A stretch of 64,000 bases of DNA from Axinella damicornis. Its lineage: Eukaryota; Porifera; Demospongiae; Axinellida; Axinellidae. Positions within the stretch are counted from its first letter, which is position 1. Each line of letters opens with the position of its first letter. Shown one piece after another: positions 17,201 to 63,101 of the stretch. A model generated the notes under the pieces. The model saw nothing but the letters and a program-made list of their open reading frames with translations, did not search any database and was not told the origin of the DNA. A program made the translations under genes and the position numbers. Location of the stretch: positions 14,894,242 through 14,958,241 of the forward strand of contig OZ007506.1 of the NCBI GenBank assembly GCA_963931865.1, written 5' to 3'.

Positions 17201-20200
17201 TCTGTGTGAAGTGAGTCTCTCCATGGATGTGTTTATTTAGCGGAAAGATTTAATACATTTATCATTTGAATGAAAAAAAAAAAATTGCTCATATGTTTCT
17301 TTAGTGTACACAGATATGTAGGTAGGTGTACTGTAGATTATTTTTGCATGCTGCTTTGTTCCCACTTCATCATGATACATAGCTTCTGATAACAGCAATG
17401 GATGTAGAGAAGCCACAGCGGTCAGTGAGGGAGTTCTCAAGCAACGTTGACGAGGAGGATGAAAAGATATTGCAACAGAAGAGGGAGCAGGAGGTTGCTG
17501 TCGTAACAAAGTTGACTGCACCATGTCTACATGACCTTGAAACTGCTCTGAAGGAAAAAAGGTACGCTGTTAATTTTGTTGAATGATTTGTTGCTGTCCC
17601 TCGAGTCTCGATATCAAGAATGCATGGAGCTTCAGAATGATGATGAAGCAAATGCAGAGATATTAGTATGTCTTTTCATTTGCTTTAACTCAGATTCAAG
17701 AAAGATGTCTGGGAGAGTATCTCAACACAGTTATCGCAGATAGCACTTTTCAGGTATGTCGTTGAAGGCCTCATGTACTAGTCAGTGACAATGTAGTTAA
17801 TATTCCCAAACAAACTTCTACCATGCAGAACTCTTTTCCAGAGTGAACTTGCAACATTTGGGGATTTCTCTAAGGACAAGCTTCTGGATACCTTCAAGAG
17901 GTTGTCTTTATTAGCCTGCAATTAGCCTACCATGTGTACCATGTTTATGTGAACCTTACGGGATGAAGGCACTCCATTTGTTCCATACCAGTCCTGTCTG
18001 TTGAACTGTACGTATATTTTTTAATGGTTATAGTGCATGGTTTAGAAGATGATGCCATCCTTCAGAACAATAATATTATTCGGACTTGCTTTTGTGGGGC
18101 AGCTTTGCCGTAAACCGGAAGGCTTTTTCCGAGAATTGGAAGATTTCTTTTCAAAGAAGCTGAAGGCTTCTTGTGAAGAGCGCTACTTACCACTTTACAT
18201 GTGGGTAATTCGCCTGTGATTGACACACTTGCGCACAAACTCTCTCCCTACTGCAATCACCTGTCTGCCACACAGCAAGTTTCCTCAGGAGGTTTTAAGC
18301 AGTGAGAATATGATGCACCTTCTCGCAATGTGTGCAACCAGGATTGAGCATGTGCAGGTCAGCTTTAGAATGGGAGATTTATTCCTGTTTCATTAATTGA
18401 CCTATTGATCTACGTACATATTTCCGGTAAAATATCTTTCACTCTATAGACCCCGAGATTCAACTCCTTGAAAGCCACACTTTCTGGATTCCTACAACAC
18501 TTTCTGACGCTGGAGATTCCTGCCCAGAGAATCATTAAGCCTCGAAGTTGTGAGAATGCGAGTGAAAGTGAGGTGATTGATACCCTGGAGGCCAGGGTGA
18601 AGGAGTTAGACTGTTTTCTGGATGCTATTCCTCGAAATTCTGAAGACAAAAGCAAGCTGATCGAATGCGGATATAACAGTTCCCTATGGGAGGAAGTAAG
18701 TTATCTGTATTTGACATCTGCAATTATGGATTATTATGTCCAAGAATGAGTAATGAATGTTTGTACATCTCCACTAGAAACTTTCCCTGACGGTTAATAC
18801 GGATGGTTCGCATAGTCTGGATGAGAATATGCGACAAGCCCTGCTGGCATGCTACACAGAGTTTGGTGACATACTCAAGCAATTGGCAATCACTCATGTG
18901 AGCACAATGTTTGTTATGAGTCTGTTAACCCTTTACCAACCAATGACGCATAGACCTATATGCGTGGCACATCCGGCAATGTTCTTGGGACTTACGTTCT
19001 GCATGAGCAGAAAGGGTGGGACAGTGGGAGGTGGGTGGGTGCACCCAAAGGATGCAAACAACATGGCCGCGTCTGGGCTTAGCCATGTTTAGCCCCTGGT
19101 TGGAACCAGGTGGGCCATTTATTGGGATTTAAGTGTAAATGGGCCTAGAAAACAGTGCTCTCACCTTGTAGAGCCTCGGATTCCAGTGTTCAAGGCTGAT
19201 TTTTCTGCTAGAGCAAGTTACCATTGCCCGAGTATCTTGATCGCATACTCATTAATGATTGGGTGTGGTTAGAACCACGAATGTAGATAGCATGGCTGTG
19301 TGCAGTGCTGTGTGCATAAGAAAGAGCATTTGAATGTCTTCACTAGTACGTATGTTTGCTTTACTAGTTGTCGGTGGATGGGGAGATGGTGAAGTCATCT
19401 GACCTCTTTAGTGATGAGCTTTCCCTTGCTGAGATGAAGGTACATTTATATGGTGGATGGATGTTACCGTAAGCAACAATTTAGGGTGCCCAGAGAGTGA
19501 GGAATTACCCATGGAAGCTCAGAGTTAGCCTCCTTCCCAGGCCCTGCCCAGCATTCCATCGCTTGCAGTACGATTAAGCAGGAGCTATATTCGTGCTGCA
19601 AGCGACAAAAAGCCGGGTGTGGGCCTGGGAATGAGGCTAGCTCAGAGTAATATCAGACCTCCTGAACATTAGTCAGACATTCTTACCACCAAGCCACTCG
19701 TAGAATTTCAGCTGAGGCCTCTGGGCAATGCTGCTTATATAATTGCTCTGCCCAGGAGTCGTAGTGGCTTAGTGAGGAGACCATCTAGACTAGCATCCCT
19801 CACTCCCTTAGTATCCCTGTTAAAGTGTGTTTTGTGGAACTCTTGGCAAGGTATTGAGCTGCATCCCCCTCTCTCAGGGTCGTAGAGCCATTGCAGTGAG
19901 AGCAATAGACCAGAGATTGGGAAGAACTGGGGAAGGTCACTTTTATGAGAAGAAGGTAAATTGAGACTGCATTTGCATGAACAGACATGACTATGATACT
20001 GGAAGTGAGCATCTGGTGGTACAGACGTTAGGAAAGTGACTTGGATCTTAATCGTACAGTCACATCACGTTTGTACATATGTACACTGTACAGGAGCACA
20101 ATGTTAAGTGTTCTGACATAGAAACATTAAGTGCGCTGCCGGATTCGATTATCCATAACTTCCATGTACGGATGTTGCTGAGTTGGCTCCATGACATCAA

Positions 20201-23200
20201 GTTGAATTTTGCAAGTGAACAGTATGCCACTTCGATTACAAAATGGTGTGAGCTGTACATATCTCTGATCCCAGGCCTAGGAAGAAGGTAGAAAGGCCCG
20301 TATACGTAGGAGAACTGGTAGTAGTGATTTACTTGAATGGCTTCATGCTGTGCACTGCCTGAAGTCCACTTCAGAAATTGTCAATGCATTAGCTACTATC
20401 AAAATGTACACAGAGTGATGTGATGTGTCAAGGTGCACTCTTCATAGCGTGATGTCAAGCATAGTGTGATGTCAAGCATAGCGTGATGTCAAGGAATGTT
20501 CCAGGACGGTACGCTCTACAATTTGATTGAACTGAGTTGAATGCTCCTTCACCACCCTTGGCGGCTCATGCACTTCTGATACAATATACACGTGTCATGC
20601 AAGAAGAACGAGACATTTTTTCTGCACTGAATTTTATTGCTTGTCATACGTATTTGCTTGTATCTATTTCTGTCACGCACTTTCATGATCGGCCACTGTG
20701 TTTCAGGTGACTCTATTGGCCAAAGAAGATGAGATTGAAGCAGATTTTGAGAAACAGGTCAGACACGGTGCATGGCCTTGATCTAAACAAGTGAACACAT
20801 TGTTTACATGAACGTTAATCCAGCAGGGCTGAGCTGTTGTCCACATGCTCATCTGGTGCCCATATATTCTGTCGTCATTCAATAGTCAGTCATACAATGA
20901 CTTCATACCACCCCTACCTCAAGCTTAACGATATTTCCGACCAATATATTGTCTTCTTTTAAGTGGTGTATCGAGCAGCCACGTGTTACAAACCAATTGG
21001 CATGGGGTCACTTGAAGTGAGCTAAGAGTAGTCTCCACAGCATTCCCCCGAGCAGGAGTAGATCAGTAGTGGTATTGGAGAATATACCAGAACAGAAATA
21101 TCCAATTGATAGAATCTGAAACATTGGTGTATGTTATCTTATGGACTTCTCCCTCTAATCTGCAGGCAAAAACCCCAGTGAAGCCCAAGACCTTTACTGC
21201 AACAGTTAACACCAAGTTTTTTGACTGTGCAAGGTAAACTTGGCATAATTTATATTGTGGGATCATAACCTCCCGACAATATGTCCATGGGTGAGGAAGT
21301 CAAGTGGCTACTCCAAAAGGGTGCGGGCTTATTATACGTAGCCCACTACCAATCACATGTAGTGGTGACAGGAAAGTATGAATGCCATGTCACTGACCAT
21401 GCGGTATCAAAATATGCTTTCCGAAGGCCTCCTGCTGCTCACTCATTGGAGTGTCCTCTGTTTCGTACTAGCACAACGTTGATACAGCGCTGGCATGGAA
21501 CAGGCCGATAGCAAGCTATTTTTGAGTGGTACGGCCACTGCCGAAGGCAGTGTATAGAGGTGTGTAGTGCCGATCCAATCTGCACGAAAATTTTCACAGC
21601 AGTTCACCTGTACATCAGTACAGCAGTACAGCAGTACAGCAGTACAGTGGTACAGCAGTACAGTGGTACATCAGTACAGCAGTACAGCAGTACAGTGGTA
21701 CAGCAGTACAGTGGTACAGCAGTACAGCAGTACAGTGGTACAGCAGTACAGCAGTACAGTGGTACAGCAGTACAGTAGTACACCAGTACAGTGGTATAAT
21801 GGTACACTAGTATGATGTCTGTATACCGTATAACTCTTTACCAACCATAAGAAACAGCTTAGGGAAGCAAAACCCTGTATTAAAGTATAACGCCTAGTAT
21901 TAAATTCCCCATATAAATTCTTATGGGCTTATGGGAGCTCATGACGGCTTTTGCAGTCATTGGTTGGTAAAGAGATAACAGTAAAATTGGTGGGCATTAA
22001 ATTTGGTGATTTCAGCCAAAACGCTGTATTTTTTAATTTAATTTTGGCAATTTGAACCACGAAATAAAAGATGAAACAGCTATGTACTCTGACTTGAGCC
22101 TTCTCATGGTTGATTCTGGCACCTTACGGTCTAAAAGCTGGGAGAAGTGTCTGGCAGCCTTGGGTCGGGCCGTATTCGGCGGCATACCTTCCCATCCTCG
22201 CTCTTTCAGCTAATTGTACTTCCCTCAGCTTTGAGGTGTGATCATCTTGGAGCATGTTGGGCTAGGGCCGTGGTTTGCTTTCCCCAGAGCATGCCTCACA
22301 CTCTTGTTAGCACCTTCCCGGAGAGAGAGGAATCCCCGATGTCGCGTTCTCTGGGGAGTATACAGCTGTCGTTCTTGAAATACTGGTACAGCGCCATAAT
22401 TGTATACTGTACATAGGTATGTGCGTGCGAACATTACTAATGTGCACGCACATACCCAAGTGGCCATCTGGGGTGGGGTTTATTATTGGCAGAATTTAAT
22501 TTGGCATTTTTTTCCTACACTGCCAAATTGCCAAATTAAAAACCCCGCCAAATTTTCCCGCTATACGGTATGTTCTGAGCATTTACTTTTGGTAATTTTG
22601 AATAGGTGCTGTGGGTCTCAGATCATTGGGTGCTATGCACCAACTGGTGAACATTGTGAGAAGCCTCTGGAGGTACGTATACGTACTTGCGTTTCCAAAG
22701 TTACAGTGTTAGAACATCAACTGTCAAAAAATTTGTTGTTTTTCACAACATTTAGATTGGCATGCGGCGTGACAGTGCAATTGCTTCACTCTATGATGAA
22801 TCAGGTCTGGAGATTGAGAATCTGGAGATTTTGTTTACAGAAGAAGGTACAGTAACCGTTGTTACCATGTGATATCTATGGGGACCATCTGTATCCAAGT
22901 TGTGATACATACCATTGGTACATTAAAGCTTTACCAAGTAGCCTTGTTCCCAGGCCATTCCCACCACCAGTATTTGATCACTTCCAGTATGAAATACGGC
23001 GGGGGAAGGCCTTGGAGATCTGGTCATGTGCGATGACATCAGATAGACAGAGGATAGATGCACGGGGGGCGGTGCCCAAGCGTTATAATACCTGTTTCAC
23101 ATAGATCCGTCCCTGTCATTGTGAATAACAAACAGTATCGATCGTCTGCCTTGCGAATGCTCTGACATCTAGCCATTTGACGTACAGTACAACACAGGAT

Positions 23201-24469
23201 GTCGAGATTCTTCATTGGGCACCGCCCCCTGTGTGTCTACCATGCGTCTACCTGATGGCACCGCACATGACCTGATCTCCCAGGCCTTCCACCGTCGTAT
23301 TTCATACTGGAAGCGATCAAATACTGGTGGTGGGAACGGCCTGGGAACGAGGTTATTATCAAGTGCGTGAGCAACTTAATCATCTTTATAGTTTACCCAT
23401 GACATAATTATGATTTGTATTTATGCAGGTGCTTACATCTTCAAGGCCTATAGCAATGGACATCCATACGATACCTCTCAGGTTAGATTGTGATGTAGAG
23501 TAAACGATCAATCTTTTGACAACAGGTATTACCGGATGCGCTCAAGCATTAACCTATGCCTATGGGGGTGTGACTTATTAAGGCCAGATGTTGACCCCAC
23601 TGAAGTCTGGAGTCAAAGATTCGTGCCACTCCTATGCATCACTGCAGAGCTAGCAGCTCCCAAAGCTGGTGTCCAAAATCTTTGGATGAAAGAATAAATA
23701 ATCGGATAGGAGCTAGTTATTGCATGCACATGACATGATATTAGCAAACCTCTATTATATAGGCCTTTAGTGCAAGTCCGAGCTCTGTGCCAATCTCACG
23801 CTGGCTCACCCCGTGATGCTAGTCTGTTTCTTGTCAGACGTCACTGCTGTTATTAGCAACAGCAGTATAATCTCAGCCCATGAGGCTAAAGCATCTTGTT
23901 ACTATTCTTTTCAGGTTTGGGTGTCTCTGTTCACAGCCATGCTGAAGGACCCAGCTCTAGTACCTGCAATCATAATACCCAAGTGCTATCCCAATCAGAG
24001 AACATGGGAGGCGCTGAGGAGGTACAATACAATACGGGTCTGACTTTTCAAGAGTGTATCCTCTAATGAACGGTTACCTGACAAAATATTCTAGTATTTC
24101 ATTTAGAATAGTGCTCAAGGGTAGTGAGCTGAAGTAAAGGGGGAGGCATGAGTAATGAATAATAACTCTTGAGTACCTTTTAGTGGGGGGAAGACTCAGG
24201 GATAAACGCGCCCTCCTACCCCTCTCCTCCCCCCCAAATGAAACTCTGTGCTTCTTTCGTTTTACAGGTGTGTGTCAACAGAGATGACGGGCAGCATCTT
24301 GACCTGCAGGCCTGACTTCTCGCCAGAGTGGAGGACATACTATGACCACAGGTACAAACTAGAATGTGCTTACCCAGTTAAGTACGTAGTTGTAAGCATT
24401 AACTACACAGGTTGTGTCAGAACTGTGCCTGCACTGGTTGGTAGTGGTGTCAGCACTACCATCTAGAGT

Positions 24470-24506
<37 letters not shown>

Positions 24507-27500
24507 TGCACATAGGGGCTAAGTACATCCACCAGTTATTTGTGATATGTTCAATGTCCTCCTCTTGTGAGTCCTGGAGGTGTATTCAGATAGGTTGTTT
24601 GACCTGACCTTGCAGTTGTGTTTATGTTGTTTTTTCTGCTTGGATGAATAGAGCTGAGAAGGTTCGTCTGGACATGGATATGGTTCTTCACCAGGGGTTT
24701 TCCCTAACCACAGACCAATCCCAATCCAGGCCACTCTTCCAGAGGCAACGGTCGAAACTGGCCAAGGTTAGTACTTGTGCTGCTTTAGCCTGTTAGCCAA
24801 AAGGTTGAGAAGGTATCATGATGTGATATGATGTACACTAGCTTGCCAGAATAGAATTACAAGCATAAAAACGTGACTTTATTTGAGAGGAAGATCTATT
24901 TTGGAGAAACTATTATTATGCTACCACATTTATTCAGCTACATTTTAATGCCATGTTTCATCACTAATTTATACTAAAGTATGTATACGGGTAATAAAAT
25001 ACATATATTTCAGGATCTGGCAGGTTTGATTTTTGAAGCAGTCATGCAGGATCTGTTGGAGGATGAATGGCTGAAGCAGTTCAGGTATAACGATTCTACG
25101 TATGTGGTGTTCTGTTGTACAATTAAAAGGCATAGACCTTCCATTGTATAATGAACTTGTTTGCTAATGTGCGAACGGAATGTGCGTACCGCTGTATGCA
25201 TGTGCATACATACATACATTACTGCTACAAAAGTTCAGAGTTAGCCTCGTTCCCAGGCTCCTCCCCAGCTTTTTGTCGCGTACTGTATCCGACAAAAAGC
25301 TGGGGAAGAGCCTGGGAACGAGGCTTGGCTGAGTATAAATTGGGTTGGTTTCAGTACGTGTGGTGTGTTTGATGACTTTAGAACAAGGTTGGGTTAAAGT
25401 TTAAACTACACATTCAACACTTGGTGTGTATAACAGTCACCCCATGCTAGCTAGATATGTGTGTTAAGTTACCTGTCACCTTAGCTCTTCTTCCTTGCAA
25501 GAAGCCTTCCACTTCTCGAAAGAACATTGTGATTTGTGGATGAAGCCTTCCGAGAATCCTTCCGATATTTGGCAATGATGGAAATTTTCAAATATATGTA
25601 CCATTATCCTTGTGCGGAAAGCAGCTACACAAGTATCTACATGTCTGCTCATGCAGATTTCCTCCTTTTTACTGCCTCCTGCACTGTTAGGTTTCTTGGG
25701 AAGGTGATTTCACAGTACATTAGTGAGTGCGTTCAGGGTGGGGAGAGACGGCCTGACATCCTTCTCAATGGATTTGACTATGACAGGTGGAAGAAGATGT
25801 TCACCAAGTTGAAGAATGTGAGCTATGTAAACATCTGCAGTTCACAATTGTATGCTACAAGTAGAAATCCTAGCACAATGTACGTAAATAGCCTTCCAAC
25901 AAGGCTCTCTCACCCACATGGATGAGAACAAGAAAAGTAGGGGAGAGATAAGTACCTGCTGCATATATAGTTCCAGAAATTCTGTAGGAATTGAGCAGCA
26001 ACAGCCAGCAGAGAACCACACTCTTCGCCCCTTGCTATGGTGCACGTCAGTTTAATATTCAGGCCTCATCCCTTGATCAGAATCTTGCTTGTATACTCAA
26101 TTTGGATATTGTGTCTGGTCCTTGTTCAGTTTTGTAGGTACATAATTTTGTACCTTGCAATGGATCTGGATCCCAGTGTGAGTGAATCTGTGTCATATGT
26201 ACCTCCTTTAGCCTCCGAATATCCCACTGGTTCTCAGTGACGCGTCATCTCTACCACCTGCCAAAGAGAAACTTGTCCTCCACCTGCTTGAATATGTGGA
26301 TCAAGGAATAATCTCCTGGTGCATGAACGCTGACATTGCACAACTGTGTGTCAACAACCACAGGCAGCTACTTGAACTTAAGGTGTGGCAGGAATGTAAC
26401 GAGAGCACATGGGCCATTATGAATGCGGAGTTATATTTGCCTGATAACACATACTTATTATGTGAGTTTGTTAATCAAAGTTTACTCCTCACACCGTGAA
26501 GCAAGCCAGTTGTTGTTCGTAGCCTTCCCTTGAGATCCTTATAGTACTCACAATACGAACCGTGTCATAAGTTTTCAGCCACAGATAATTCTCATCTGCC
26601 TAGTAGTAATAATTATATTGTCGTCATTAATATTGTGCTAGTTTTACTGACAGCTTATGTGTCTGCTTTGGGTGGAAAGTGCCTCTCCGTTCATTTTTAA
26701 AGCATAACAATCAGACAAAACTTAAAGTGGTGAACAGGTGCACAAGGTCTCCAAAAAGATTGTAACAACTTAATGAGTGTTTCAAATGGATTCAACTTCT
26801 CTTTAGGGATTCCTTGAGAGGACGAGGTATTTCCTAGATGGGACAGAGCTTCGCAAATGTGTAAGGCACAAACGTTTGATCATGAATGTGTCTGCAGATT
26901 TGCTGATATAGTGTTGTACCTCTCCACATTAGCTCACAGCTGTGTACAAGTTGTTGGGTCGGTGCACGTTTGTTGTGCCTCTCCTCTCACTTCCTGATTC
27001 TTTGCAAGACGAAATCATTCACTGGGTGTTTAGAAATGAGGATAGGTATGAACTACATTATCATTGGTAGTAGTATAGCAGTATATATGGGTAATCACAT
27101 AGTGTAGTAGTATGGGTTTGCACGGCCAAGAATTTTGCAAGTTTTCCAGCTATGTACGTATACAGGTACCACTGTCATGTGTATGTTTTCTGTACGTGTA
27201 CATACATGTACATAGATTGTGTCTAGCCTCGTTCCCAGGCCTCCACCACAGCTTTTGTCGCTTGCAGTACGAAAATCGCGGAGAAGGCCTGGAAGGGTTT
27301 CGCACGTGATGCGTGCCGCCGCTTACGTCACGGATTCCGTTAATACACACTCACGGTATTCAACTTGCTATCGCCTGTTCCAGAGACGCTACAGAGACCA
27401 GACAAACTCCAGAGGAGAGGCAGGCCCTACCTATACAACATACCTCGATTTGAAACAAAACCGCTGAGAGATGGCTGCAATACAACGGTTATAACTTCGA

Positions 27501-30065
27501 AGCGCTTTTGACTGTTCACTCCGTGCAGTGAGCCATCGCTCCGGAAATACAACACTTCCAACTCAGCACTACTTCGAAGGTAAGACTTCTAGCTTGGATA
27601 AGTCGGTGTGGCTCTCTTCTGGCCGTTGACTTGTCTCCGTATGCGATCGTGGCTACTGTACTAGTACATAGTGGTCTTGAACGGATGACGTTTTATGACG
27701 GTCGCGGCACGCATCACGTGCGAAACCCTTCCAGGCCTTCTCCGCGCTTTTCGTACTGCAAGCGACAAAAGCTGGGGTGGAGGCCTGGGAACGAGGCTAG
27801 ATTGTGTCCTCATGATATTCACTTCTGTATTGTATACTTTCTATAGGGTGTGGCGTTACCGAGGAGGAAGGGATGGCCATGAAACTCTGCAGCAGTTCAT
27901 GAACTTCCTTGGAAGGGGGAAAGAGGTGCAACTTGAAAGTGGCACCCAACAGGGACAGAGCCATTGCACTACAGCTGGTAGGATCTAATTTATACTTTTA
28001 CTCCAGTAACCTTGACGTGTATTGGTGCCTTTTATTGATAATGTTTGTGCTTGACTTTATGACTATCGGCTTGCACTGCGTACAGCTTGTGTTGTAGAGT
28101 AGTTGGATTAGACAGGTGCATACTTTTTTTGCAGCAACTACAGCATCAAAGCAGCACAAGTCGTATGCAGGTGTGGTAGTATTCTGTGTACCTTACGTGC
28201 TTGAGTCTGGGAGGAACACACGATCTGTTGATGCCACTGGATTTCAAGTATGTAGTGTAATTGACGTAAATTGCAAGCTACGGATGTACATGTAGAATGT
28301 GGCAATAGTATTTCACTGATGTACGAATTACACAACACCTTAGAAAAGTTGTGGTTACAACAACACCTCATGGTTACAGTGTCAATACTTTTTGTCAATA
28401 CTGTTGGGAACTAAATTCATACAGGTATCTAACCAACTCACTTGATATAATATTTAACAAACATCGTGGCTTTATGACATGGGTTTATCAATGGATGTAT
28501 ATTGCTATTCTGGCTATTATTATCATATTGCTATTCACTGGTACTATATATAGCTGCATTTATATTGTTATAGTGGTTTGAAGTAGTTGCACTAGTCTCA
28601 TTCCCAGACGCTCCTCCGCGACTATCAATTCACAACATCTGATTTGACTGAAGCACCTTATTTGGAACCTAATTGATTTCATGTCTTCCCACTCGCGGTT
28701 TTGATTGGCTACAAATGCAATCATAAACAGCAGGTAGGAATTAGGAACTAACTGCACGACTGTTCTTTTGTGAAGGTTGATCAGATGATAGCCTATGCAT
28801 TGGGTGAGATGGCTAAACCATCCCGGGAACAAGAAGTGGTGGATGAAGAGGTGCAGATAAGGTGGCACCCAGCAAGCTTGAACTGCTATGAAGTTGTCAC
28901 TGCCTGGGTGCACCCAAAGTAAGAGATTCTTTATAGCTCACTGTTTGTAAAGCCTACACAAAACCTTTGACTATACGTTAATCGTAACAAGATACATGCA
29001 TGCATATTAGTGGGTTGCTGATTGTTGATTGCATGGACCAGTGTGAATGGACATGCATTAATACTCTGGAAATTCCTTATTTCTCTCCCATTTTCGAAAA
29101 TGCATGGGTTTGGAGTCAGCCAATTCCTATCCATTGTTAGATCATATGTGCATGGGTATTCATCCTCGCTACACTCCCATATATGATGGCAATTGAAATT
29201 CTAACTTTTTCCATAGGTATCGTTCACTGAATCTAAGTGTACAGATGTACCTGGAAATAATGAAACGCGGTGAGTCCATGACATGAAAATGGCAAATTTG
29301 ACTCTGAATTCGATCTGTCCATTGGCCTTCACCAACAGCCACTGATATTGATTCTTTCCTATTCAGCTCCTGCCAGGCTGGTGATGTGTGACATGCTGCA
29401 AGGAAGTGTGGAGAGGATCGTCTCTAGCAACTGGCTGCTGCAGTTACTGGACAAGCTTCGAATTTCAAGGCTTGTGATACAAAAGAGGCAACAGTCCTAC
29501 TTGGTTACCACACAGGTGAAGTAATAACGTACTCTCTCTGTTCTCCAGCCCAAGGAACCTTTGAACCATCCGTGTATGTACATGTATTGTCTGCAGTCTG
29601 GAGTCCTAGAGGTGTGCTGGCCAATCATTATTACTGGTATCACATGCCCTGCAGATATTCATAAGTGTGTGTGGCGCTATAGTGTGGCGATGTGAAGATT
29701 GTCTGGATAGTTAACTCTTTTTCTATGACCCATCTGGGACTTCACCTAAAAGGCTCAAAGTTCAGAAGAGCTCCAGCTACATCACTGAATTATGTTCTGT
29801 TTGTACCTTGGCACTCAGTCCTTTGTGCAAGGTTTCTCTTGACATTCTATTCTTTCTGGTACTCTCCCAAATACCTCAGACTGGCCGCACAGAACAGTTT
29901 GAACAGGTGGTGTTCAATGTCCATCCACTGAGGATTGCTTTATGGGTCCATCGTTCAGCAAGGTGGATCAAGGTGAATTCGAAAATCATCTCAGCAGTAG
30001 CACTGACTACAGCAACTGTTGCAGCTGCATTATATTATCTGCCCAACCTTCTCAGTAAGATATAG
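2064..30065 (+). CDS. Large multi-exon gene, mainly helical protein with C-terminal membrane anchor; family not recognised
   Basis: About 40 exons can be chained by hand with GT-AG borders and mostly compatible phases, from ATG 2064 (MAESSRLPEV) to TAG 30063-30065. The product is about 1,500 residues. Early parts are amphipathic helices rich in L/E/K, suggesting an alpha-solenoid or coiled scaffold, with an acidic linker (exon 12351) and a GEEPPPPPGG segment (exon 14537). A more beta-like stretch spans exons 22606-24351. The final exon (29880-30065) ends in a hydrophobic segment (AVALTTATVAAALYYL) followed by a few residues, as in tail-anchored membrane proteins. I do not recognise a family and assign no function. 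Joins not resolved: 20245 to 20707, 25817 to 26238, and the frame inside exon 27848-27976. Exon coordinates follow in separate entries. Confidence 0.7.
3000..3145. repeat. Tandem repeat, 3 units of about 58-70 bp
   Basis: GTGGGAATTGTAGCTCTGAA recurs at about 2999, 3069 and 3127, each followed by TAGTATGTGTTTGATATAAT. Intronic. Confidence 0.8.
3809..3940. repeat. 35-bp tandem repeat within a hairpin-MITE end
   Basis: AGCTTTTCATTGCTTGTAG with TACGGAAAGTGACCCC repeats three times at 35-bp spacing (3830, 3865, 3900). It starts with GCATTCCCAGGCCCCC, a diverged end of the GCCTCGTTCCCAGGC family, so the internal part of one MITE was tandemly amplified. Confidence 0.7.
7765..7860 (-). repeat. tRNA-derived SINE fragment
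   Basis: On the minus strand there is an A-box-like GGCTTAGTGGTAAGG (7825-7840) followed downstream by a B-box-like GGGTTCAAATAC (7801-7812), the spacing expected of a tRNA-type RNA polymerase III promoter. No intact tRNA fold, so a SINE head is more likely than a tRNA gene. Confidence 0.5.
8500..8685 (-). repeat. 3' LTR of the retrotransposon
   Basis: 186 bp beginning TGTGGTATCGTTCC on the plus strand and ending CACAACACTACA, matching 11688-11895 with small differences. Preceded by target duplication GCCAC. Confidence 0.9.
8767..9625 (-). pseudogene. Retrotransposon integrase relic
   Basis: Minus-strand reading gives the core-end motif FGLPEFIVTDNGTCM (about 9555-9600), then YHPASNGLTERAVQ-type sequence (about 9430-9475), then a C-terminal domain with VGQKVYVRNIGQGQRWLPGQ (about 9105-9170), the usual order of a Ty3/gypsy integrase. 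The frame breaks near 9480-9510, so it is a pseudogene. Confidence 0.85.
9650..10920 (-). pseudogene. hAT-superfamily transposase relic nested in the retrotransposon
   Basis: Minus-strand fragments: a BED-like zinc finger (FVRCVICSSDF then HxxxxxH spacing, about 10770-10870), a middle part (10536-10724), and a hAT core fragment (9906-10322) with SDTTNVMKGARSGVQ, CICHLPDL and QTRWLSF motifs, followed by a hAT-like tail (FNRVFQKSTENTTSVLFSEM, about 9780-9860). Frames are broken between them. A roughly 75-bp segment encoding FNRVFQKSTENTTSVL occurs twice (about 9615-9690 and 9805-9865), bridging the hAT tail and the resumed integrase. Confidence 0.7.
10925..11290 (-). pseudogene. Retrotransposon protease and gag tail relic
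   Basis: Minus-strand reading of 10925-11040 starts with the retropepsin active-site motif DTGSSVSLLS and continues into FEKLWPERELSP before the hAT junction. 11076-11291 is a basic segment (KRYSQGHIRQQNACKSGKG) typical of the gag nucleocapsid region. A stop separates them. Confidence 0.75.
11436..11651 (-). pseudogene. Retrotransposon gag N-terminal fragment
   Basis: Reads FDSAKEEWPQYEERLGHYFV and KKRAVLLTVIGPSAYKVLRNL, the conserved start of gag in mag-like Ty3/gypsy elements. Located directly after the primer binding site, as expected. Confidence 0.85.
11688..11895 (-). repeat. 5' LTR of the retrotransposon
   Basis: 208 bp starting TGTGGTATCGTTCC and ending GACAACACTACA on the plus strand, followed by GCCAC. 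It has a few insertions relative to the other LTR, so the insertion is not brand new. Confidence 0.9.
12028..16120 (+). CDS. Large gene, exons 11-20
   Basis: Exons: 12028-12102, 12172-12272, 12351-12538, 13220-13329, 14537-14600, 14662-14754, 15123-15201, 15318-15417, 15638-15707, 16028-16120. The join from 8270 (phase 2, CG) to 12028 (G) restores Arg across a 3.76-kb intron holding the LTR retrotransposon. Exon 12351 is acidic. Exon 13220 must end at 13329 (donor GTACGT) and not four bases later, because only that gives FFGEEPPPPPGG in exon 14537. Later exons are regular helices (DILQITQETLEAGHSIDELI-type), consistent with HEAT/ARM-like repeats, though no repeat consensus can be defended by eye. 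Confidence 0.7.
12708..13014. mobile_element. CACTA/EnSpm-like MITE, copy 1
   Basis: 307 bp with long inverted ends: CACAGGAAAAACTACCTG at the left and CAGGTAGTTTTCCCTGTG at the right, complementarity continuing about 50 bp through the TTTTCATCGTCAAA region. Flanked by 3-bp duplications TTG (12705-12707 and 13015-13017). CAC termini with 3-bp target duplications fit the CACTA/EnSpm superfamily. No transposase. Intronic. Confidence 0.85.
13696..13991. repeat. 37-bp minisatellite, about 8 units
   Basis: TTCTTCTTAGCCACCTAATA plus GTGTCTCTGTACATGCG repeats nearly perfectly at 37-bp spacing from about 13696 to 13991. Sequence just before it (13550-13695) resembles 56990-57140, another dispersed family. 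Confidence 0.9.
14170..14430. repeat. Dispersed repeat shared with 44815-45010
   Basis: Words such as CCAGTGCCAACCAAG, GCTGTTTGCA and GAAGTGACA occur in the same order here and at 44890-45000 (also partly 34695-34790). No coding potential seen; intronic. Confidence 0.5.
14773..15082. mobile_element. CACTA/EnSpm-like MITE, copy 2
   Basis: 310 bp, same termini as 12708-13014 (CACAGGAAAAAACTACCTG ... TGTTTCCTGTG) and flanked by TAT (14770-14772 and 15083-15085). The interior is CpG-rich and more diverged. Intronic. Confidence 0.85.
16563..16910. mobile_element. MITE with CTTCCG-rich interior, copy 1
   Basis: Starts near GCTGCGATTCAGAAATCTTT and ends near TCTGAATCTCGACATCAATA then CTTACCGTAC, matching in order the element at 53158-53412. 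The interior is full of GAAGCCTTC-type short inverted words. Confidence 0.6.
17082..20245 (+). CDS. Large gene, exons 21-30
   Basis: Exons: 17082-17210, 17419-17561, 17694-17753, 17829-17900, 18276-18357, 18450-18695, 18778-18897, 19368-19439, 19878-19955, 20094-20245. The 18276 exon accepts phase 2 directly from 17900, so the open stretch at 18040-18195 is skipped and treated as intronic repeat. Content is helical with an E/D/K/Q-rich coil in exon 17419. After 20245 (phase 2) the frame does not enter the next clear exon at 20707 (phase 0). A 7-nt microexon at 20281-20287 flanked by AG and GT would fix this, but its upstream intron would be only about 35 bp, so another solution may exist. Confidence 0.65.
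18040..18195. repeat. Fragment of the CTTCCG-rich MITE family in an intron
   Basis: An open stretch here could be mistaken for an exon, but GGAAGGCTTTTTCCG and GAAGGCTTC words match the MITEs at 16563-16910 and 53158-53412, and the flanking exons join in phase without it. Confidence 0.5.
19526..19639. mobile_element. Mutator-like hairpin MITE with 9-bp target duplication
   Basis: Begins TAGCCTCCTTCCCAGGCC, ends GGCCTGGGAATGAGGCTA, flanked by GCTCAGAGT at 19517-19525 and 19640-19648. The interior carries the AGCTTTTC / GCTTGCAGTACG type inverted words of the family. Confidence 0.9.
20707..25817 (+). CDS. Large gene, middle exons with a beta-like segment
   Basis: Exons: 20707-20757, 21166-21233, 22606-22672, 22756-22846, 23429-23481, 23915-24021, 24268-24351, 24652-24766, 25014-25084, 25691-25817. 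All phases agree; for example AG at 21232-21233 plus G at 22606 gives Arg. Exons 22606-23481 read as short beta-like strands (CCGSQIIGCYAPTGEHC, IENLEILFTEEG, YIFKAYSNG), unlike the helical remainder, so a separate folded domain is likely. Exons 23915-25817 return to helices and contain a Cys-containing stretch (MTGSILTCRPDF) and the motif ILLNGFDYDRWKKMF. No family recognised. Confidence 0.7.
21602..21805. repeat. Short-period GTACAG tandem repeat
   Basis: About 200 bp of CAGTACAGCAGTACAGTGGT variants with 8-10-bp period. Translatable in all frames as Q/Y/S or V repeats, which is an artefact of the repeat. Confidence 0.9.
21833..21974. mobile_element. Foldback MITE with CTCTTTACCAACC ends
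   Basis: CTCTTTACCAACC at the left and GGTTGGTAAAGAG at the right are perfect inverse complements. Related single ends occur at 18929 and 32460. Confidence 0.65.
22939..23355. mobile_element. Mutator-like MITE, long inverted arms
   Basis: Starts TAGCCTTGTTCCCAGGCC and ends GGCCTGGGAACGAGGTTA. Arms include CCACCAGTATTTGATC paired with GATCAAATACTGGTGG. Flanks TTACCAAG and TTATCAAG differ at one base and look like the target duplication. Confidence 0.75.
24471..24506. repeat. Poly-C tract
   Basis: Run of about 35 C in an intron. Similar homopolymers at 39857-39886 (C) and 47171-47203 (G). Confidence 0.95.
25242..25326. mobile_element. Short Mutator-family hairpin
   Basis: 85 bp that is almost one perfect stem: TAGCCTCGTTCCCAGGCTC with CCCCAGCTTTTTGTCG pairs with CGACAAAAAGCTGGGG and GAGCCTGGGAACGAGGCT. 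No clear 9-bp duplication. Confidence 0.8.
26238..30065 (+). CDS. Large gene, 3' exons including C-terminal membrane segment
   Basis: Exons: 26238-26382, 26807-26860, 26933-27045, 27848-27976, 28776-28918, 29217-29269, 29367-29515, 29880-30065. Entry into 26238 needs phase 2 while 25817 ends phase 0, so one small exon is missing between them. Exon 27848-27976 starts in one frame (phase 2 from 27045) but must leave in another (phase 0 into 28776); the switch falls in the GGGGG run at 27915-27919. The last exon follows a good polypyrimidine tract and encodes about 30 soluble residues, a basic patch (HRSARWIK), then the hydrophobic anchor and stop. Confidence 0.65.
27224..27799. mobile_element. 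Mutator-like element, 576 bp, about 100-bp inverted repeats, 9-bp target duplication
   Basis: Left end TAGCCTCGTTCCCAGGCCTC and right end GAGGCCTGGGAACGAGGCTA begin inverted arms that extend about 100 bp to GTTTCGCACGTGATGCGTGC and its complement. Flanked by GATTGTGTC at 27215-27223 and 27800-27808. Long arms plus 9-bp duplication are the hallmarks of Mutator-like elements. No transposase is inside; it is a non-autonomous copy in an intron. Confidence 0.9.
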
Positions 30066-32758: not shown

Positions 32759-34109
32759 TTAAGTACAGTCATCCTTATATTCCAACAGGTTTTGTTCGAC
32801 AAGTCTCTGTTCCATACAGTCCATAACAACATGGTCCCACTCCATAAAGTACTTGTTGAAGAAGAAATTTGGCTGCTGTGCATTGACTCCCTTGCTATAC
32901 ACCATGGGCAGATCACCAATGCTTAGTATGCATATGTAATGAACAATTCTTCCTTTGCAAAACTCCTGTGGAATATTGCGGTGCATCCATTGATATGCGT
33001 CAACAATAGGTATTACAGTACCATTCTTAGGGGGACCACCAGGTACTCCTGGTAGTTTGTACAAGGTTGAATAAAAGTGTTCCTCCGAACTTTTGGCGTC
33101 GTTTAGATACTTTCTGAGTGCAATGGCTTTTTTGTTAGTCAGGAGGAATGACACAAATGGCCTACTAGCAGCTATGTAGGTCATAGATTTGTAGAACTTA
33201 ATGCCATAAGGAACAGGCCCCGTTTTCTCTTGTGTTCTCGTAAGAACTCCGGCAGACAATACAAACTTGTTGACAAGGCGCTGTCTAGCCGGTTTTCGAA
33301 CTTCATCAGAATCAACAGCAGAGGATCCATTCAAATTAACAAGACTCTGCACAATTTCCCTATTTGTCTTCAGTGGTAGCTCTCGACCACACAAGTTGAT
33401 GGTGTATCTCCACCTTGAGGGATTATATCTCATCAGGTCTTGCATGCAGTTTAACTGAGCATCCAAGATAGTGTGGTGAGCGTAGTACACTTTCTCCAAC
33501 TTTGATGCAACAAAAACATTGTCAAGACAGTGAGAAATGGCCTGAAATGATCTTACAGAGTTTGGTGCTTTTGCATCTGGGTGGATGCAGTATAAATTGT
33601 GAGGTCGGTATATGACTTTCAGTAGCCTCAAAACCTGCCTCACATTGGTATACACCACAAGCCAGAGGAAAGTTCTCCTCTTCAGGAGATACATAGAAAT
33701 TACTGGAATATTCTTCGACAATGTGGGAACAGTTGCTGAGGGTCTTCAGAAACTCTTCATCTGATTCTGCATTCACCCAAGTCTTGATCCTCTTCTTCAC
33801 AGTCCTGAGCTCTCCTTCATCACCTGTCCTGAGGGCAGTACAGTTGGCCTTTATCCTAGGCTGGAGCAGGGTCACCATACCATTCTTCCAAGACTTCACT
33901 CTTGTCACATTGCACTGGCGATGGGTGTGCGACTGGGTAGAAATGGGCACAGGTGTAGGCCTGCGAAAGGATGCCCCCAATGAAGAAGAGAGTGCAATGT
34001 ATCCTACAATCACCAGCTCAGCGAAGACGATGAACAGAAGTGTTGCATGTGGTGACTTCAAGTGTTGGAAAATCTGAGAGAAGAGAGTTATTTGGTGGTT
34101 GCCTTTCAT
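32759..34109 (-). pseudogene. Core-2/I-branching beta-1,6-GlcNAc-transferase (GT14), copy 1, frameshifted
   Basis: Closely matches the intact copy at 42868-44256. The start MKGNHQITLFS and a signal-anchor helix are retained (34000-34109). The reading frame breaks at about 33660, where 7 bp (GATGTAT in the other copies) are missing, so the N-terminal part runs out of frame before VVYTNVRQVLRLL. Downstream the catalytic region is open to the stop at 32759, including CGRELPLKTN, SSEEHFYSTL and PGVPGGPP. A second, in-frame change shortens the segment after DAYQWM by about four residues. Most likely a recent pseudogene; a sequencing error is possible but 7 bp is unusual for one. Confidence 0.85.
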
Positions 34110-38580: not shown

Positions 38581-38607
38581 AGCTCTACAGCTATAGTTAG
38601 AGAGCAA

Positions 38608-45550: not shown

Positions 45551-45680
45551 GGAACGTGCTTAGGGATACTCTACCACAGTAGTCCTTTTCAGTCATCAGG
45601 AAGGGCTCTTGAGGTGTCTTCGTGCTTTCCACTGCCCTGCTACTGCTTTCCACTTCCTTGCTATCTCTCAGCATCATGGT

Positions 45681-45777
45681 TAGCCTCATTCCCAGTCCCA
45701 CGCCCAGATTTCGGTCAGTTGCAGTCCGCGTTCTTTCATGCAACCAAAAGCGGAGCACAGGCCTGGGAACGAGGCTA
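45681..45777. mobile_element. Mutator-family hairpin MITE with 9-bp target duplication
   Basis: TAGCCTCATTCCCAGTCCC ... GGCCTGGGAACGAGGCTA, flanked by CATCATGGT at 45672-45680 and 45778-45786. Confidence 0.92.
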
Positions 45778-47468: not shown

Positions 47469-47521
47469 TAGTCTCGTTCCCAGACCCTCAATACGCACGG
47501 AAGGGTCTGGGCACGAGACTA
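47469..47521. mobile_element. 53-bp Mutator-family hairpin
   Basis: TAGTCTCGTTCCCAGACCCT ... AAGGGTCTGGGCACGAGACTA. Flanks AGCTGGCCC and GGCTGGCCC differ at one base. A terminal-sequence variant of the family (GTCTC for GCCTC). Confidence 0.8.
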
Positions 47522-48180: not shown

Positions 48181-48234
48181 GGAGTAAGGCTATCGCAGAA
48201 ATTTGTCAGTGATTGTTGCCTTCGTCTCCTCCCA

Positions 48235-49035
48235 GGAAATTTGCTTTGGAGCAAGCACTTTCAGAGAAGCAAGACCTCCTCTCTTGTGTTGCTAACTGCC
48301 TGTCCTGGCTCAATCAGGCCGAGAAACACCTGGCCTCGCAGAAACCGCTGGGGTCTAACTCTGTACATGTCCATTACATAGCACATCAGGTATGGGAGGA
48401 GAAAGAAGGGGGAAGGGTGAGGAGGGAGGGAGGGAGGCTAGGGAGGGAGGGAGGGAGGGAGGGAGGGAGGGAGGGAGGGAGGGAGGGAGGGAGGGAGGGA
48501 GGGAGGGAGGGAGGGAGGGAGGGAGGGAGGGAGGGAGGGGAGGGGAGGGGAGGGGAGGAGAGGAGAGGAGAGGGAGGGGAGGGAGGGAGGGAGGGAGGGA
48601 GGGGAGGAGGGAGGGGAGGAGGGAGGGAGGGTGGGGAGGGAGGAGGGAGAAGGAGGGAAGAGGAGGAATGGGGAGCAGATGGAGGGAAGGGAGGGAAATG
48701 GAGGGGGAAGACACAGGCGAAGAGGGAGGGAGAGAGGAAGGGGAGAGGAAAGAAGGGGACTGCTCTCTTTGGCATATTGATATGCCACCCCTAATCCACT
48801 CCCCAACAGGGGTTCCAGGTTGAAGTCCAAGTGCAGAAACCGAAAATGGAGGCAGTGATTTTGGTGGGAAAGCAGACTGCCTTGGAAACACAGTGGCCCC
48901 AAGGTATCCCAGAGAAGACTGCTATGGATAACCTCCAGGTGCAGTACAGTACACTAGAGGAGAGGTGGAGGGTTCTGAGTCAATCAGGAGGCAGAGTAGT
49001 AGGGAGAACTGCTGGAGAATGTGGACCCAATTACA
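48235..49035 (+). CDS. Spectrin-repeat exons of a larger gene
   Basis: Exons 48235-48389 and about 48811-49035 flank a (GGGA)n-filled intron. The first reads CVANCLSWLNQAEKHLASQK, with the Trp and Leu/heptad pattern of spectrin-repeat helix A; the second reads LQVQYSTLEERWRVL, a typical helix C. Between them runs KMEAVILVGKQTALE. This pattern fits spectrin-repeat proteins of the dystrophin/dystonin/nesprin type, cytoskeletal cross-linkers, but the family member cannot be named. The donor after 49035 is GTATGG; neighbouring exons were not identified with confidence. Confidence 0.6.
48417..48760. repeat. (GGGA)n microsatellite within an intron
   Basis: Over 300 bp of GGGAGGGAGGGA with GGGGA and GGAGA variants. 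Long G/E/R ORFs here, and P/S/L on the other strand, are artefacts. Confidence 0.97.
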
Positions 49036-57980: not shown

Positions 57981-57989
57981 CCACACCGG

Positions 57990-58995: not shown

Positions 58996-59559
58996 TGTGT
59001 CCTGAAAGAGGGATTCTACAACATTTTGAGTATATAATGTATGCAGATCATGATAATGTCACCCTGTGTAGATTGTATGACCTGCAAATGAATGTGATTT
59101 GTTGCAGGATCATAGGTGTGTTCACTGTTTCACCATGTGTGTTGGTTGTGTGACCATGTGTTATTGTCTCCCCCTCAGAGGACTGAGTCTTCATTTTGGA
59201 GAGAAGATGTCTCATGCTCACATACCCTGTATTTATAAGCTAGACTGATGCATCAGTATTGTTGCTGGGAGGAGAGTTTTTCAGTTGGCTAAAGAGTGCA
59301 TAGCTATCGTTCCTCCTCAACTCCAACTTCAGGCAAGCAACAGACACTGGTCGTCCCCCCATCCCCCCACATGTGCCCCCCAAGCCAGGAGGTGACCCTC
59401 ACAGCAGCAGGGCAGTGAGGGGGCTGCCCATGTCGGGGACGTGGAAACATGTAAGAGATATGAGCTTGTGTGCAAGATGGGTGTGCACTACAGTGGCATT
59501 GACTGTTGTTTCAGTGTTACACTTGAGTATGGCATGGTTCCATAAACCTCAGCAAGGAA

Positions 59560-59875
59560 CTCTCTCTTCCTCCCTCCGTCCCTTCATCCCTCTCACCCTT
59601 CCTCCCTCCCTTCGTCCCACCCTCCCCTCCGTCCCTACCTCCCTCCTCCCTCCCTCCCTCCCCCTTCCCTCCCTCCCCCCTCCCTCCCTCCCCCCTCCCT
59701 CCCTCCCCCCTCCCTCCCTCCCTCCCTCCTCCCTCCCTTCCTCTCTCCCTCCCTCCCTCCCTCCCTCCCTCCCTCCCTCCCTCCCTCCCTCCCTCCCTCC
59801 CTCCCTCCCTCCCTCCCTCCCTCCATCCCTCCCTCCCTCCCTCCCTCCCTCCCTCCCTCCCTCCCTACCTACCTT
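59560..59875. repeat. (CCCT)n microsatellite
   Basis: About 300 bp of CCTCCCTCCCTC with CCCCCT variants, complementary in kind to the (GGGA)n at 48417. Confidence 0.97.
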
Positions 59876-60159
59876 CCTCCAGTCACCTCTCAGAAAGACT
59901 TCAAGGTCTAAGAAACCACCATTCCTCCTCGTCTCCACCCTCCATCTCTCCCTGGGGGACAGGACCTCACCCCAGAGCAGCAACTGAAGGCCCATACCTC
60001 CTTCCTCCGAGGCAGAGCCTGGGCACAAGGCTGTTATGAGTGGAAACTGCACTGCTAGTAGTGCAACTGGTTGAGCAAACTCGCTTTTCTGAATGATAGT
60101 GCATAAACACTGGCTCATGCTCACAGCTAGTTTCCTCGGCTGCTTGTAGGTGACTAGCG

Positions 60160-60990
60160 TGTGGGTGTGTCGAGCTCCCCGATTGCGTCCGCTTCAGCTG
60201 ATGCTCCCCGTTTGCGTCCGCTTCCAGCTGTTGCTCCTCGATTGCATCCGCTTCAGCTGCTGATCCCGATCGCGTCCGCTTCGGCTGCTGCTCCCCGATT
60301 GCGTCCACTTCAACTGCTGCTCCCTGATTGCGTCCGCTTCAACTGCTGCTCGCCCGATTGCGTCCGCTTCGACTGCTGCTCCCCGAATTGCATGTATCCC
60401 ATATCCTCTTGCAGCCCCAGCTGGATTCCAGCGGAGAAGAATGTTGAAAATGTGTACTAAGAGCTGGGACTCAGGATATCAGGATCTAACGGTACCCAAA
60501 TGCCAACCCTTGAGAATCGCAGATTATATTTAAGTCTTTGTACTCTTTACAAAATTATTCATGGTCATTTTTATTTCCCAGACAATGTATTTATTTCTCA
60601 ACCTAGTAGACATTTTCAAACCTTACCTTTGTTGTACCAACCTTTTGCTCACACTAACGCATTTAAATATTCATTTGTACCTAATACTATCTCAGTCTGG
60701 AACCATTTCCCTCAGGATGCACTTACAGCACATTCCATTTCTTCTTTTAAAGTACATACTGCACCGCGATCTTTTTATGTAGTTTAACTTATTTTTATCT
60801 GTCATTACTAATCGTGGCTTCTATTAGCTATTATATTGCTATTATGTATCCATTGCATCATGCATAAACTTTCATAAAAATAAATAAATAAATAAAAAGA
60901 GTTCGAGGTTCAGTGAAGTACGAAGGTCGCGTATCACAATAGTCTAGTCCCGCCCCACGAACATCCCACTTCTGTCATGCACAGAAAGAC
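60160..60990 (+). repeat. VNTR-bearing dispersed repeat, copy 2, with non-LTR element inside
   Basis: 60175-60385 is a tandem of GATTGCGTCCGCTTC plus AACTGCTGCTCCCC, the inverse complement of the VNTR at 1006-1165. 60895-60965 (GTTCGAGGTTCAGTGAAGTA, CTAGTCCCGCCCCACGAACA) is the inverse of 894-975. Between them lies a non-LTR 3' end. Confidence 0.75.
60480..60897 (+). mobile_element. 3' end of a non-LTR retrotransposon
   Basis: 60500-60787 encodes PTLENRRLYLSLCTLYKIIH, then FAHTNAFKYSFVPNTISVWN and LPDALT-like sequence, the C-terminal tail of many non-LTR reverse transcriptases, ending after FKVHTAPRSF. About 100 bp of 3'UTR ends in an (AATA)n tail at 60878-60895. 5' truncated, typical of target-primed insertion. 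Confidence 0.8.
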
Positions 60991-61083
60991 ATAGATACAC
61001 ACACACACGTTAGCTAAAATGTATTGATGGCAAACAATACTAATACATACTCACATGTTCAAAACACTTGAATGCGATAGTTG

Positions 61084-63101
61084 CTATATAGTGTCACAGA
61101 CATAGAGGAAGCCATCCTGGTCAGTGGTAATCCCACGTGGGTACTGCAGTTCTCCTCCACTGTCCCTCCTGCCAAATGAGGTGATGAATGCTCCTGATTT
61201 GTGGAATGTCGATATACGGTTGTTCCCCTTGTCAGCAACATAGACATGGCCATGGTCCACATGGATACCCCTTGGGTAAGACAGTTCACCTGGTCCACTG
61301 CCATGCACACCAAATGTTCTCAGATATGTTCCATTCTGGGAAAACACCTGGACACGATGATTGTCACGATCTGCAACATACACACTACCAGCAGGGTCAA
61401 AGGTCAGATCATAGGGTGAAATCATCTCACCCTCACCACTTCCTACAAAACGGAAAACGAATTTCAGGTTAGTGTCAAATACTTGTATCCTGTGATTGCA
61501 GGTGTCACAGACAAAGAGCTTGTTATCCTGACTGATTGCAATGCCATGAGGATAATCAAACTGTCCTGTCTTGCCACCCTGACCACCAACTGACTTCACT
61601 AATTTTCCATCAGAGTTAAACTTGGACAATCTGTGTGATTCCACATCAGTAACGTTACTATCCTCATCAACAGCAACTCCCCGTGGGTTCAGCTTGTACT
61701 TTCTGATGCCTGACCTAACAGATGTAGTGTCAATGCTCCTGATCCTCTCACCATCTGTACTGATTATGGAGATTTTATGGTCCTCACTAACAACAAGCTT
61801 TCCACTGCTAGTGGTGGCTGCCATAAACAGTGGATGAAGATCTTTGATGACTCTGACTGTCCTGCCCAGTAGATGAGGAGCTTGCCTGGCGTACACTAGG
61901 AATGGGCTTCCCTGCACTGGCACATCATTCATTTGTACACTCAACTCATGTCGACCTCGTGTGTTAGGCTGGTATGAAACCTCATAAATGTCTGGAGTCT
62001 TGTGTGCTACACTGGCGGGAGTGACTGAGCTGTCCACGAGGGACCTCAGCTCTGCAGTGACCTGCTGTTCAGTGGTACAGGGATCACCAGCCATGTCCAC
62101 CAAGCGGACCTCAAAGTGAGCTTGTTGACCAGTCTCTGCCAGCTCCAAGCCCTGCCCAACCACAGTGCATCTCTGAGGATCCGGCTGTAAGGCAGGAAGG
62201 GATAGGGAGGGAGTAGTTGAAATTTGCATATTTCTAGTGACCTCCTGCATTGCGTACAGACAATCACTATAGTTACCAGCTCATAATGATGAGATGGGTA
62301 CTTCCTGGATACAAAATGATTGCCTATATATACCCATTATCTGACAATGGGATCTAAGGAGTAATTTAAAACAATGTCACTACACAATATCTCACGTGTT
62401 TGTTAATTTCATCTCAGGCAGATTGGGTACGAATTTCCCTGATCCAGGATGTGCCATTTCGTTCTCAGTACCACCACTGTCAACAGTAGCCTCGTTCCCA
62501 GGTCCTGTACCGACCGCCTGGGAATGAGGCTATGTCAATAGATGGGTACTTCCTGGATAAGAAATGATTGCCTACCCACTATCTAACAATGTCACTACAC
62601 AATCTCACATGCTTCATTAATATTTGACAAAGTTTTGTCTCCCAGCATGATCTCTGCTATCCAAGATGTGTGCATTTGGTGTCAGTACCATCACCATCAA
62701 TAGCAAGCCATTAACGGACACAGGCTCTTTGATTGGTACATCACAAAACACTGTACCTGAGATGCAGCATTTTTCTTCTCCCTGAGCTCTGCTATCAGCT
62801 GCTGAAAGGACTCTATTTGTCGGTGGATAGCCTCCAGCTGTCTCTTCCCCTCCTGTTTCTCATCCTCAGCCTCCACCAACTTGGCCTTCAGCTCTGAGGT
62901 CTCCACCGTCAGCCTGTGCAGTTCCTCCTCCTCCTCCTCCGATTGGCACCTGCTCACCCCCTGCAGTCGAGCTTGCAGTGTCTGCAGCTCTTCAGAAAGC
63001 TCTGCAATCTCCCTCTCCCTCTCTGCAATGGTCTGCTTGAAGGCCTCAACTTCAGAACCTGGTATTGCGTTATACTCCTCCTCCACAGACGCTAGTTGAT
63101 C
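61084..63101 (-). CDS. TRIM-NHL type protein: coiled coil, filamin and NHL exons (N-terminal part outside window)
   Basis: Minus-strand exons 62757-63101 and 61084-62244 join in phase 0 (acceptor AAG before 63101, donor GTACAG after 62757, acceptor CAG before 62244). The first encodes a coiled coil (REREIAELSEELQTLQARL). The second encodes a filamin-type Ig domain (roughly AHFEVRLVDMAG to VQGSPFLVYA) and about five NHL repeats (LFVCDTCNHRIQVFD, VYVADRDNHRVQVFS, VYVADKGNNRISTF), which form a beta-propeller that binds RNA or protein in TRIM2/3/71 relatives. A RING and B-boxes, if present, lie beyond 64000, so ligase activity is not shown. The last blade is cut short: after YVCDT the frame ends ATATAG. 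Confidence 0.88.
62487..62532. mobile_element. 46-bp Mutator-family hairpin
   Basis: TAGCCTCGTTCCCAGGTCCT ... CCGCCTGGGAATGAGGCTA, flanked by TGTCAACAG and TGTCAATAG (one mismatch). Lies in the TRIM-NHL intron. Confidence 0.85.

Follow-up and report, generated by a model that had tools for sequence, protein, structure and literature searches.

A probable MITE family with very short palindromic members and 9-bp target-site duplications in the sponge Axinella damicornis

The results reported here concern a family of short, hairpin-like DNA elements found in a 64,000-nucleotide stretch of the genome of the sponge Axinella damicornis (contig OZ007506.1, positions 14,894,242 to 14,958,241; hereafter the window, in which positions are numbered from 1) and in the genome as a whole (226 Mb, 120 contigs searched). 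The family-defining end is a 17-bp terminal inverted repeat, TAGCCTCGTTCCCAGGC. The overall evidence indicates that these elements probably constitute a large family of non-autonomous DNA transposons, i.e. miniature inverted-repeat transposable elements (MITEs), moved by a transposase encoded elsewhere, most likely that of a Mutator-like element (MULE), with a 9-bp stagger. We regard as established the ends, the target-site duplications (TSDs), the target preference, the copy number and the presence of dispersed 44- and 46-bp families with differing TSDs. The most telling features are these amplified 44-/46-bp families and the tandem arrays in which the repeating unit is an element plus a TSD. 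As a MITE family, it is novel in size.

Terminal repeats and target-site duplications

With up to one mismatch allowed, there are 52,680 matches to the 17-bp end genome-wide, a reversed-letter control giving a single match. Perfect-ended elements of 34-59 bp number 970 and those of 60-89 bp number 697, the control being 0 in both cases; 11 of the 50 places listed for the 34-59-bp class belong to one array. Element size ranges from 34 to 576 bp, and the longer relatives of the tiny hairpins, up to a 576-bp copy, carry the same ends and the 9-bp TSD. No open reading frame (ORF) of at least 150 amino acids lies wholly within any element listed in the window. The family thus combines the hallmarks of MITEs, i.e. 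terminal inverted repeats, a TSD of fixed length, short size without a gene, and high copy number. The window has no match in Rfam at gathering thresholds. A single match to the 17-mer in IMG/VR, with the nearest opposite end bearing four mismatches and lying ~900 bp away, was taken as chance. The 13-base core of the end, on either strand, was not found in the full texts searched. A search of titles and the opening parts of abstracts revealed no comparable sponge family, and a search on the shortest MITEs gave nothing relevant.

A sequence-only reading of the window had proposed a hairpin family with inverted ends, mobilized as DNA with 9-bp duplications, and had put forward the scoring of flanks against shuffled ends as a check; its proposal is borne out by TSDs that are far above the shuffles. 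The window and the fetched loci L001-L040 yielded 42 end pairs (ends with up to three mismatches, partner within 1.5 kb), of which 13 have exact 9-mer duplications, compared with 0.33 in shuffles; 8-base matches (two pairs) and a 10-base match (one pair) were counted separately. Because loci L001-L020 had been fetched by an end or MULE-domain match, the test was repeated on unselected DNA, i.e. on 20 pieces of 10 kb picked by coordinate alone. The 38 pairs in these pieces (30 distinct left ends, up to four mismatches per end, 30-700 bp apart) include 13 with a TSD, compared with 0.56 expected: 10 are exact 9-mers (0.39 expected), one is an exact 8-mer (0.03) and two are 9-mers with one mismatch (0.14), the other 25 pairs having none. 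A looser list covering the window and the fetched loci (up to five mismatches per end) contains 27 TSD-bearing elements of 39-576 bp, including elements of 39 and 41 bp.

The duplicated targets have a symmetric preference, with G first in 22 of 37 TSDs and C ninth in 18 of 37. Taken together, these two positions conform in 40 of 74 cases, compared with an assumed 22.5% for each base (p 4e-9), a G...C pattern that is as expected of a transposase target.

Candidate transposases

MULEs have TSDs of ~9 bp, as does the family, and MULE domains occur at 51 places in the genome. Sixteen of these places were read at length (12 with 1.5-kb flanks and four with 3.2-4.2-kb flanks), and in these 16 no transposase gene with the family's ends was found; the autonomous MULE copy with the same termini that the sequence-only reading had envisaged was, therefore, not recovered there. 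Nor did the window and fetched loci contain any TSD-bearing pair of ends separated by 600-15,000 bp, barring register shifts in the tandem array of locus L041. Short elements or single ends do lie in or near the MULE loci L015, L016, L019, L042 and L043, none of them demonstrable as the terminus of the MULE-bearing element.

One bounded MULE element was identified, at L042:1739-6948. It has ~90-bp inverted repeats of its own type and the TSD ACCTTTTGT, and encodes a MULE ORF together with a second ORF, in which a PHD finger is accompanied by a YopJ-family match below threshold. The MULE score of this element is common to five places. At least one resident MULE thus makes a 9-bp duplication. 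L042 was rejected as the autonomous partner of the family, its ends differing from those of the family. A second candidate was the L043 group (including L046-L049), in which an extended, partnerless TAGCC... end at L043:2063 lies 547 bp before a 967-residue MULE ORF. It was rejected, the end being internal to a MULE-bearing repeat; the TAGCC... end is not a terminus because sequence outside it is common to the five copies read of this group of six. The relatives listed for one MULE include one under a bacterial label, which we take to be that of a sponge symbiont, and the only named animal among them is a mussel (39% identity).

Other superfamilies were also considered. The hAT and P superfamilies produce 8-bp TSDs and do not fit by TSD length, exact 9-mers outnumbering exact 8-mers by 10 to 1 in the unselected pieces. 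PF12762 (IS1595-type DDE), which we take to be the Pfam family of the Merlin superfamily, has 0 matches in the genome; the control matched 1 of 14 named genomes.

The Mutator-like assignment made in the sequence-only reading fits with the 9-bp TSD, with the 51 MULE-domain places and with the TSD of L042; a transposase bearing the family's ends was not found in the MULE places read. It is possible, if rather doubtful, that the transposase belongs instead to another, or an undescribed, superfamily that cuts with a 9-bp stagger; such a source would fit with the lack of a MULE bearing the family's ends among the 16 of 51 places read at length and with the different ends of the sole bounded MULE, but is countered by the presence of MULE domains at 51 places, one with a 9-bp TSD, and by the lack of PF12762 matches in a superfamily search that covered MULE and Merlin-type domains, with hAT, P and others not searched for. 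A MULE as the mover of the family is plausible, the link being circumstantial. We infer that such a transposase, most likely a MULE, would act in trans, making cuts staggered by 9 bp and favoring targets that begin with G and have C as their ninth base.

Elements of 34-46 bp and tandem arrays

The sequence-only reading had drawn attention to members of less than 60 bp with intact TSDs, the smallest being 46 bp. Such members are real, and the smallest extend to 34 bp. Among the 50 listed places, 23 are of 46 bp or less; 20 of these were fetched and, after removal of two duplicates, represent 18 independent hairpins of 35-46 bp. An exact 9-bp TSD is present in seven of the 18 and a TSD with one mismatch in five, while one lies within an (AC)n run that makes its TSD uninformative. 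Exact flank matches of 8-10 bases were found in 9 of the 20 fetched, 2000 shuffles giving at most 4. Elements with loops of 0-4 bases number 70 genome-wide, and the 50 listed of these include three 34-bp perfect palindromes, which consist solely of two abutting 17-bp ends. For two of them, the TSD is an exact 9-mer. The remaining one, L071, is flanked by 10-bp sequences that mirror each other, such that 54 bp form one palindrome, and another end lies 10 bp away. L071 has the appearance of an end that was duplicated, together with its flank, by folding back.

Two of the very short forms have been amplified. At up to two mismatches, an asymmetric 46-mer with a 12-bp interior has 56 copies (16 exact, 18 with one mismatch and 22 with two) and a 44-mer with a 10-bp interior has 72 (7, 34 and 31, respectively), some copies of each being array neighbors or duplicated loci and, hence, not independent. 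Each is present on 13 of contigs C1-C14. Flanks were read at two independent loci of the 46-mer, each having one TSD mismatch, and at three of the 44-mer, two with exact TSDs and one with a mismatch; the five loci have five different TSDs. Shrinkage after insertion would give site-specific junctions, so the repeated occurrence of near-identical 44- and 46-mers speaks for movement. Movement of units at 44-46 bp is, thus, strongly supported, not proven, and it is very probable that units of this size are copied and inserted as such, the TSDs of their members differing.

How such small units might move is a matter on which we can only speculate. One route, which we consider doubtful, is that the smallest palindromes are transposed in the form of extruded cruciforms. 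Both strands would fold back on themselves, placing the two end duplexes adjacent to one another at a four-way junction, where a transposase dimer could bind them; conventional strand transfer, staggered by 9 bp and followed by gap repair, would then give the TSD as observed. The 44-/46-bp families, the exact TSDs of 34-bp copies, the absence of a 10-bp periodicity and L071 all fit with this route, and none proves it. With respect to periodicity, none at 10-10.5 bp was seen in 90 listed sizes, which are non-independent; there is a 5-bp signal (p about 0.006 overall and 0.001 within 60-89 bp), which we suspect reflects subfamily structure. Inner stems beyond the 17-bp ends average 1.95 bp in 40 short elements, compared with 0.75 bp in a shuffled control, but no inner stem is present in 15 of the 40. 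Within the ends, concordant changes in the two arms number 9 compared with 3.3 expected (P 0.004), although these changes are not independent, being drawn from six elements of few subfamilies.

It is unlikely that the ultra-short copies as a whole never moved at their present size, longer palindromic elements having inserted and then lost their centers by replication slippage or hairpin cutting, with both ends and the TSD left intact. In support of such a process, interiors form graded series within subfamilies (e.g. CCGAGA, CCGAGACGG, CCGAGACGGG and CCGAGACGGCGA), perfect 34-bp copies are its natural end point, and it would dispense with transposition below 64-70 bp, the reported minima for bacterial cut-and-paste transposons (PMC3464196). 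Independent deletions are, however, unlikely to have produced the same asymmetric 12-bp interior 56 times, or the same 10-bp interior 72 times. Loss of the center probably does apply to many of the 34-40-bp copies. We envisage that many of the shortest copies, down to 34 bp, may arise by loss of the hairpin center after or between transpositions, a process that would keep making shorter units, some of them still mobile.

Several results weigh against the proposal that a MITE family is transposed in trans, including at its smallest sizes. The transposase gene with matching ends is missing from the MULE places read, as described above. The joined flanks of 31 insertions, when compared with the window and the fetched loci, returned only self matches, an uninformative comparison in which no empty site was found. 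No TSD is evident, even with one mismatch allowed, at five of the 18 independent hairpins of 35-46 bp (the flanks differ at two bases in L058 and L062, at three in L053 and in L052, the latter fitting if a one-base gap is allowed, and at five in the 35-bp L051). The flanks of the two tiny families were sampled at only the five independent loci; the graded interiors imply that shrinkage does occur; and the reported bacterial minima of 64-70 bp count against the movement of 44-46-bp units.

Some elements are organized in tandem. At C1:1,337,821 (L041), 22 copies of a 49-bp element plus the 9-bp TSD AGCCTGGAC are arranged head-to-tail with 98% matches, and AGCCTGGAC also precedes the first copy. 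This array is, thus, a transposon-derived satellite whose monomer is the element plus one TSD. Perfect ends lying back to back within 30 bp number 61 genome-wide, the 50 listed merging into 28 loci, some of which may be related arrays; the gap is exactly 9 bp at 8 of the 28 and 8-10 bp at 11, with 17 distributed across the other 28 gap sizes. From coordinates only, a 44-bp element has three copies spaced 53 bp apart and a 40-bp element, with 33 matches in all, has 17 copies in one array spaced 48-49 bp apart; likewise, ends at C9:10461154, C9:10662013, C9:10713361 and C10:1534096 have 9-bp gaps and spacings that are multiples of 58 bp. The 48-49-, 53- and 58-bp spacings are consistent with an element plus a TSD. 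The C9 and C10 ends share their period with the C1:1337821 array and may reflect either one spreading satellite or separate births. On C6 (3215475-3215817), back-to-back ends 8 bp apart are spaced by 100 and 201 bp, again from coordinates only, and the repeating unit here might be a 92-bp element with an 8-bp TSD.

Slippage between direct repeats across a palindrome is the basis of the precise excision of Tn10. Slippage between the TSD copies across the palindromic element could duplicate the element together with one TSD and so give rise to the arrays; an alternative, put forward in a review, is repeated insertion into the TSD (PMC12628747). That the hairpins are instead copied by replication or repair (as REP-like elements, single-stranded hairpins or spreading satellites), with the 9-bp repeats as by-products, would accord with their palindromic form, the tandem arrays and the mirrored flanks of L071, but is highly improbable given the sharp 9-bp TSD and symmetric target preference, which are the signature of cutting by a transposase, and given that the 576-bp copy carries the same ends and TSD.

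Insertions in the window, related systems and implications

Of five window insertions for which the sequence-only reading had claimed matching 9-bp flanks, four have exact TSDs and the fifth matches at eight of nine bases. The exact cases are a 114-bp element at 19526-19639 (ends with 1 + 1 mismatches; GCTCAGAGT at 19517-19525 and 19640-19648), a 576-bp element at 27224-27799 (perfect ends; GATTGTGTC at 27215-27223 and 27800-27808), a 62-bp hairpin at 41982-42043 (2 + 1 mismatches; GGTAGTTAA) and a 97-bp element at 45681-45777 (2 + 0 mismatches; CATCATGGT); the fifth is a 46-bp hairpin at 62487-62532 (1 + 1 mismatches; TGTCAACAG/TGTCAATAG). Two further insertions had been described as fitting with one mismatch. 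This holds for the 53-bp hairpin at 47469-47521 (AGCTGGCCC/GGCTGGCCC), which forms one subfamily with a 50-bp copy (L031:5655-5704) whose TSD is different, but not for the 417-bp element at 22939-23355 (1 + 1 mismatches), which matches at 4/9 in register and fits, by eye, only as an 8-mer with one mismatch (TTACCAAG/TTATCAAG). The 576-bp element has 96-bp inverted repeats (bases 1-96 against 481-576 inverted, 98% match). Forty copies of this form were scored among 1128 candidates, the window copy included, and all are 94-100% identical; it has, therefore, been recently active.

Other elements in the window lack a TSD. These include an 85-bp element at 25242-25326 (0 + 1 mismatches; 1/9) and a 129-bp element at 36852-36980, whose right end is doubled (no TSD even if one mismatch is allowed). 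Nearest-neighbor pairing of ends at 1835-2589, 25242-25326 and 36852-36959 gave 1, 1 and 3 of 9 matching bases, i.e. no TSD. A minisatellite (7.8 copies of a 33-bp unit) occupies 45276-45544; the GTACTGCAAGTGAC motif in it is similar to the inner portion of the long ends in the family, and a degenerate right end lies just after it (45546-45562). The ORFs of the window have the look of animal genes. A glycosyltransferase gene is present in three similar versions on the minus strand (32759-34148, 37159-38622 and 42868-44295), with PF02485 present in relatives of the middle copy (37159-38622). The regions 48213-48953 and 59304-60193 have, on both strands, long open frames that look like simple G/A-rich repeats and are probably not genes.

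Comparison with known systems reveals partial similarities. Non-autonomous MULE elements resemble the family in having a 9-bp TSD, and some copies here have inverted repeats of ~100 bp (as at 27224); the sizes of MULE MITEs are, however, far above those of the present family. REP elements, which are associated with a single-strand (HUH) transposase, are not known to have TSDs, whereas in the present family there are TSDs of 9 bp and the same ends recur on longer relatives. The target of mariner transposons is the 2-bp TA. The human mariner MITE, MADE1, is an 80-bp palindrome with 37-bp repeats (PMC1784062) which, like the sponge family, is a near-pure palindrome with few bases between its inverted repeats and is moved in trans; it differs in its dimensions from the 34-59-bp elements with 17-bp ends and 9-bp TSDs described here. 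Bacterial REP elements are abundant palindromes with a length of 20-40 bp (PMC3733652) and are similar to the family in this respect. The internal eliminated sequences of Paramecium are transposon-derived, as small as 26 bp, and subject to a 10-bp size periodicity (PMC3464196); they are described there as decayed and as excised by a domesticated transposase, whereas the family here has amplified tiny forms. The hairpin model for Angel MITEs (Izsvak 1999, as described in PMC12628747) invokes amplification via folded single strands, with integration by local homology, which would not yield a uniform 9-bp TSD. The same review describes satellites born from transposons as tandem copies arising at insertion; here, the monomer is exactly one ~50-bp element plus one 9-bp TSD.

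The overall results have implications for how small a transposable unit can be. Synapsis of both ends and the stiffness of DNA set a lower size limit, of which the 44- and 46-bp families with TSDs would be a direct test, and the natural range of sizes in the family could show at what point paired transposon ends stop being mobile. The arrays represent a clear case of the birth of a satellite, with a monomer comprising an element plus one copy of its target. If the cruciform route is true, it would lift the limit that DNA looping imposes (64-70 bp), and fold-back copying that mirrors a 17-bp end would, in any such case, create a mobile element at once.

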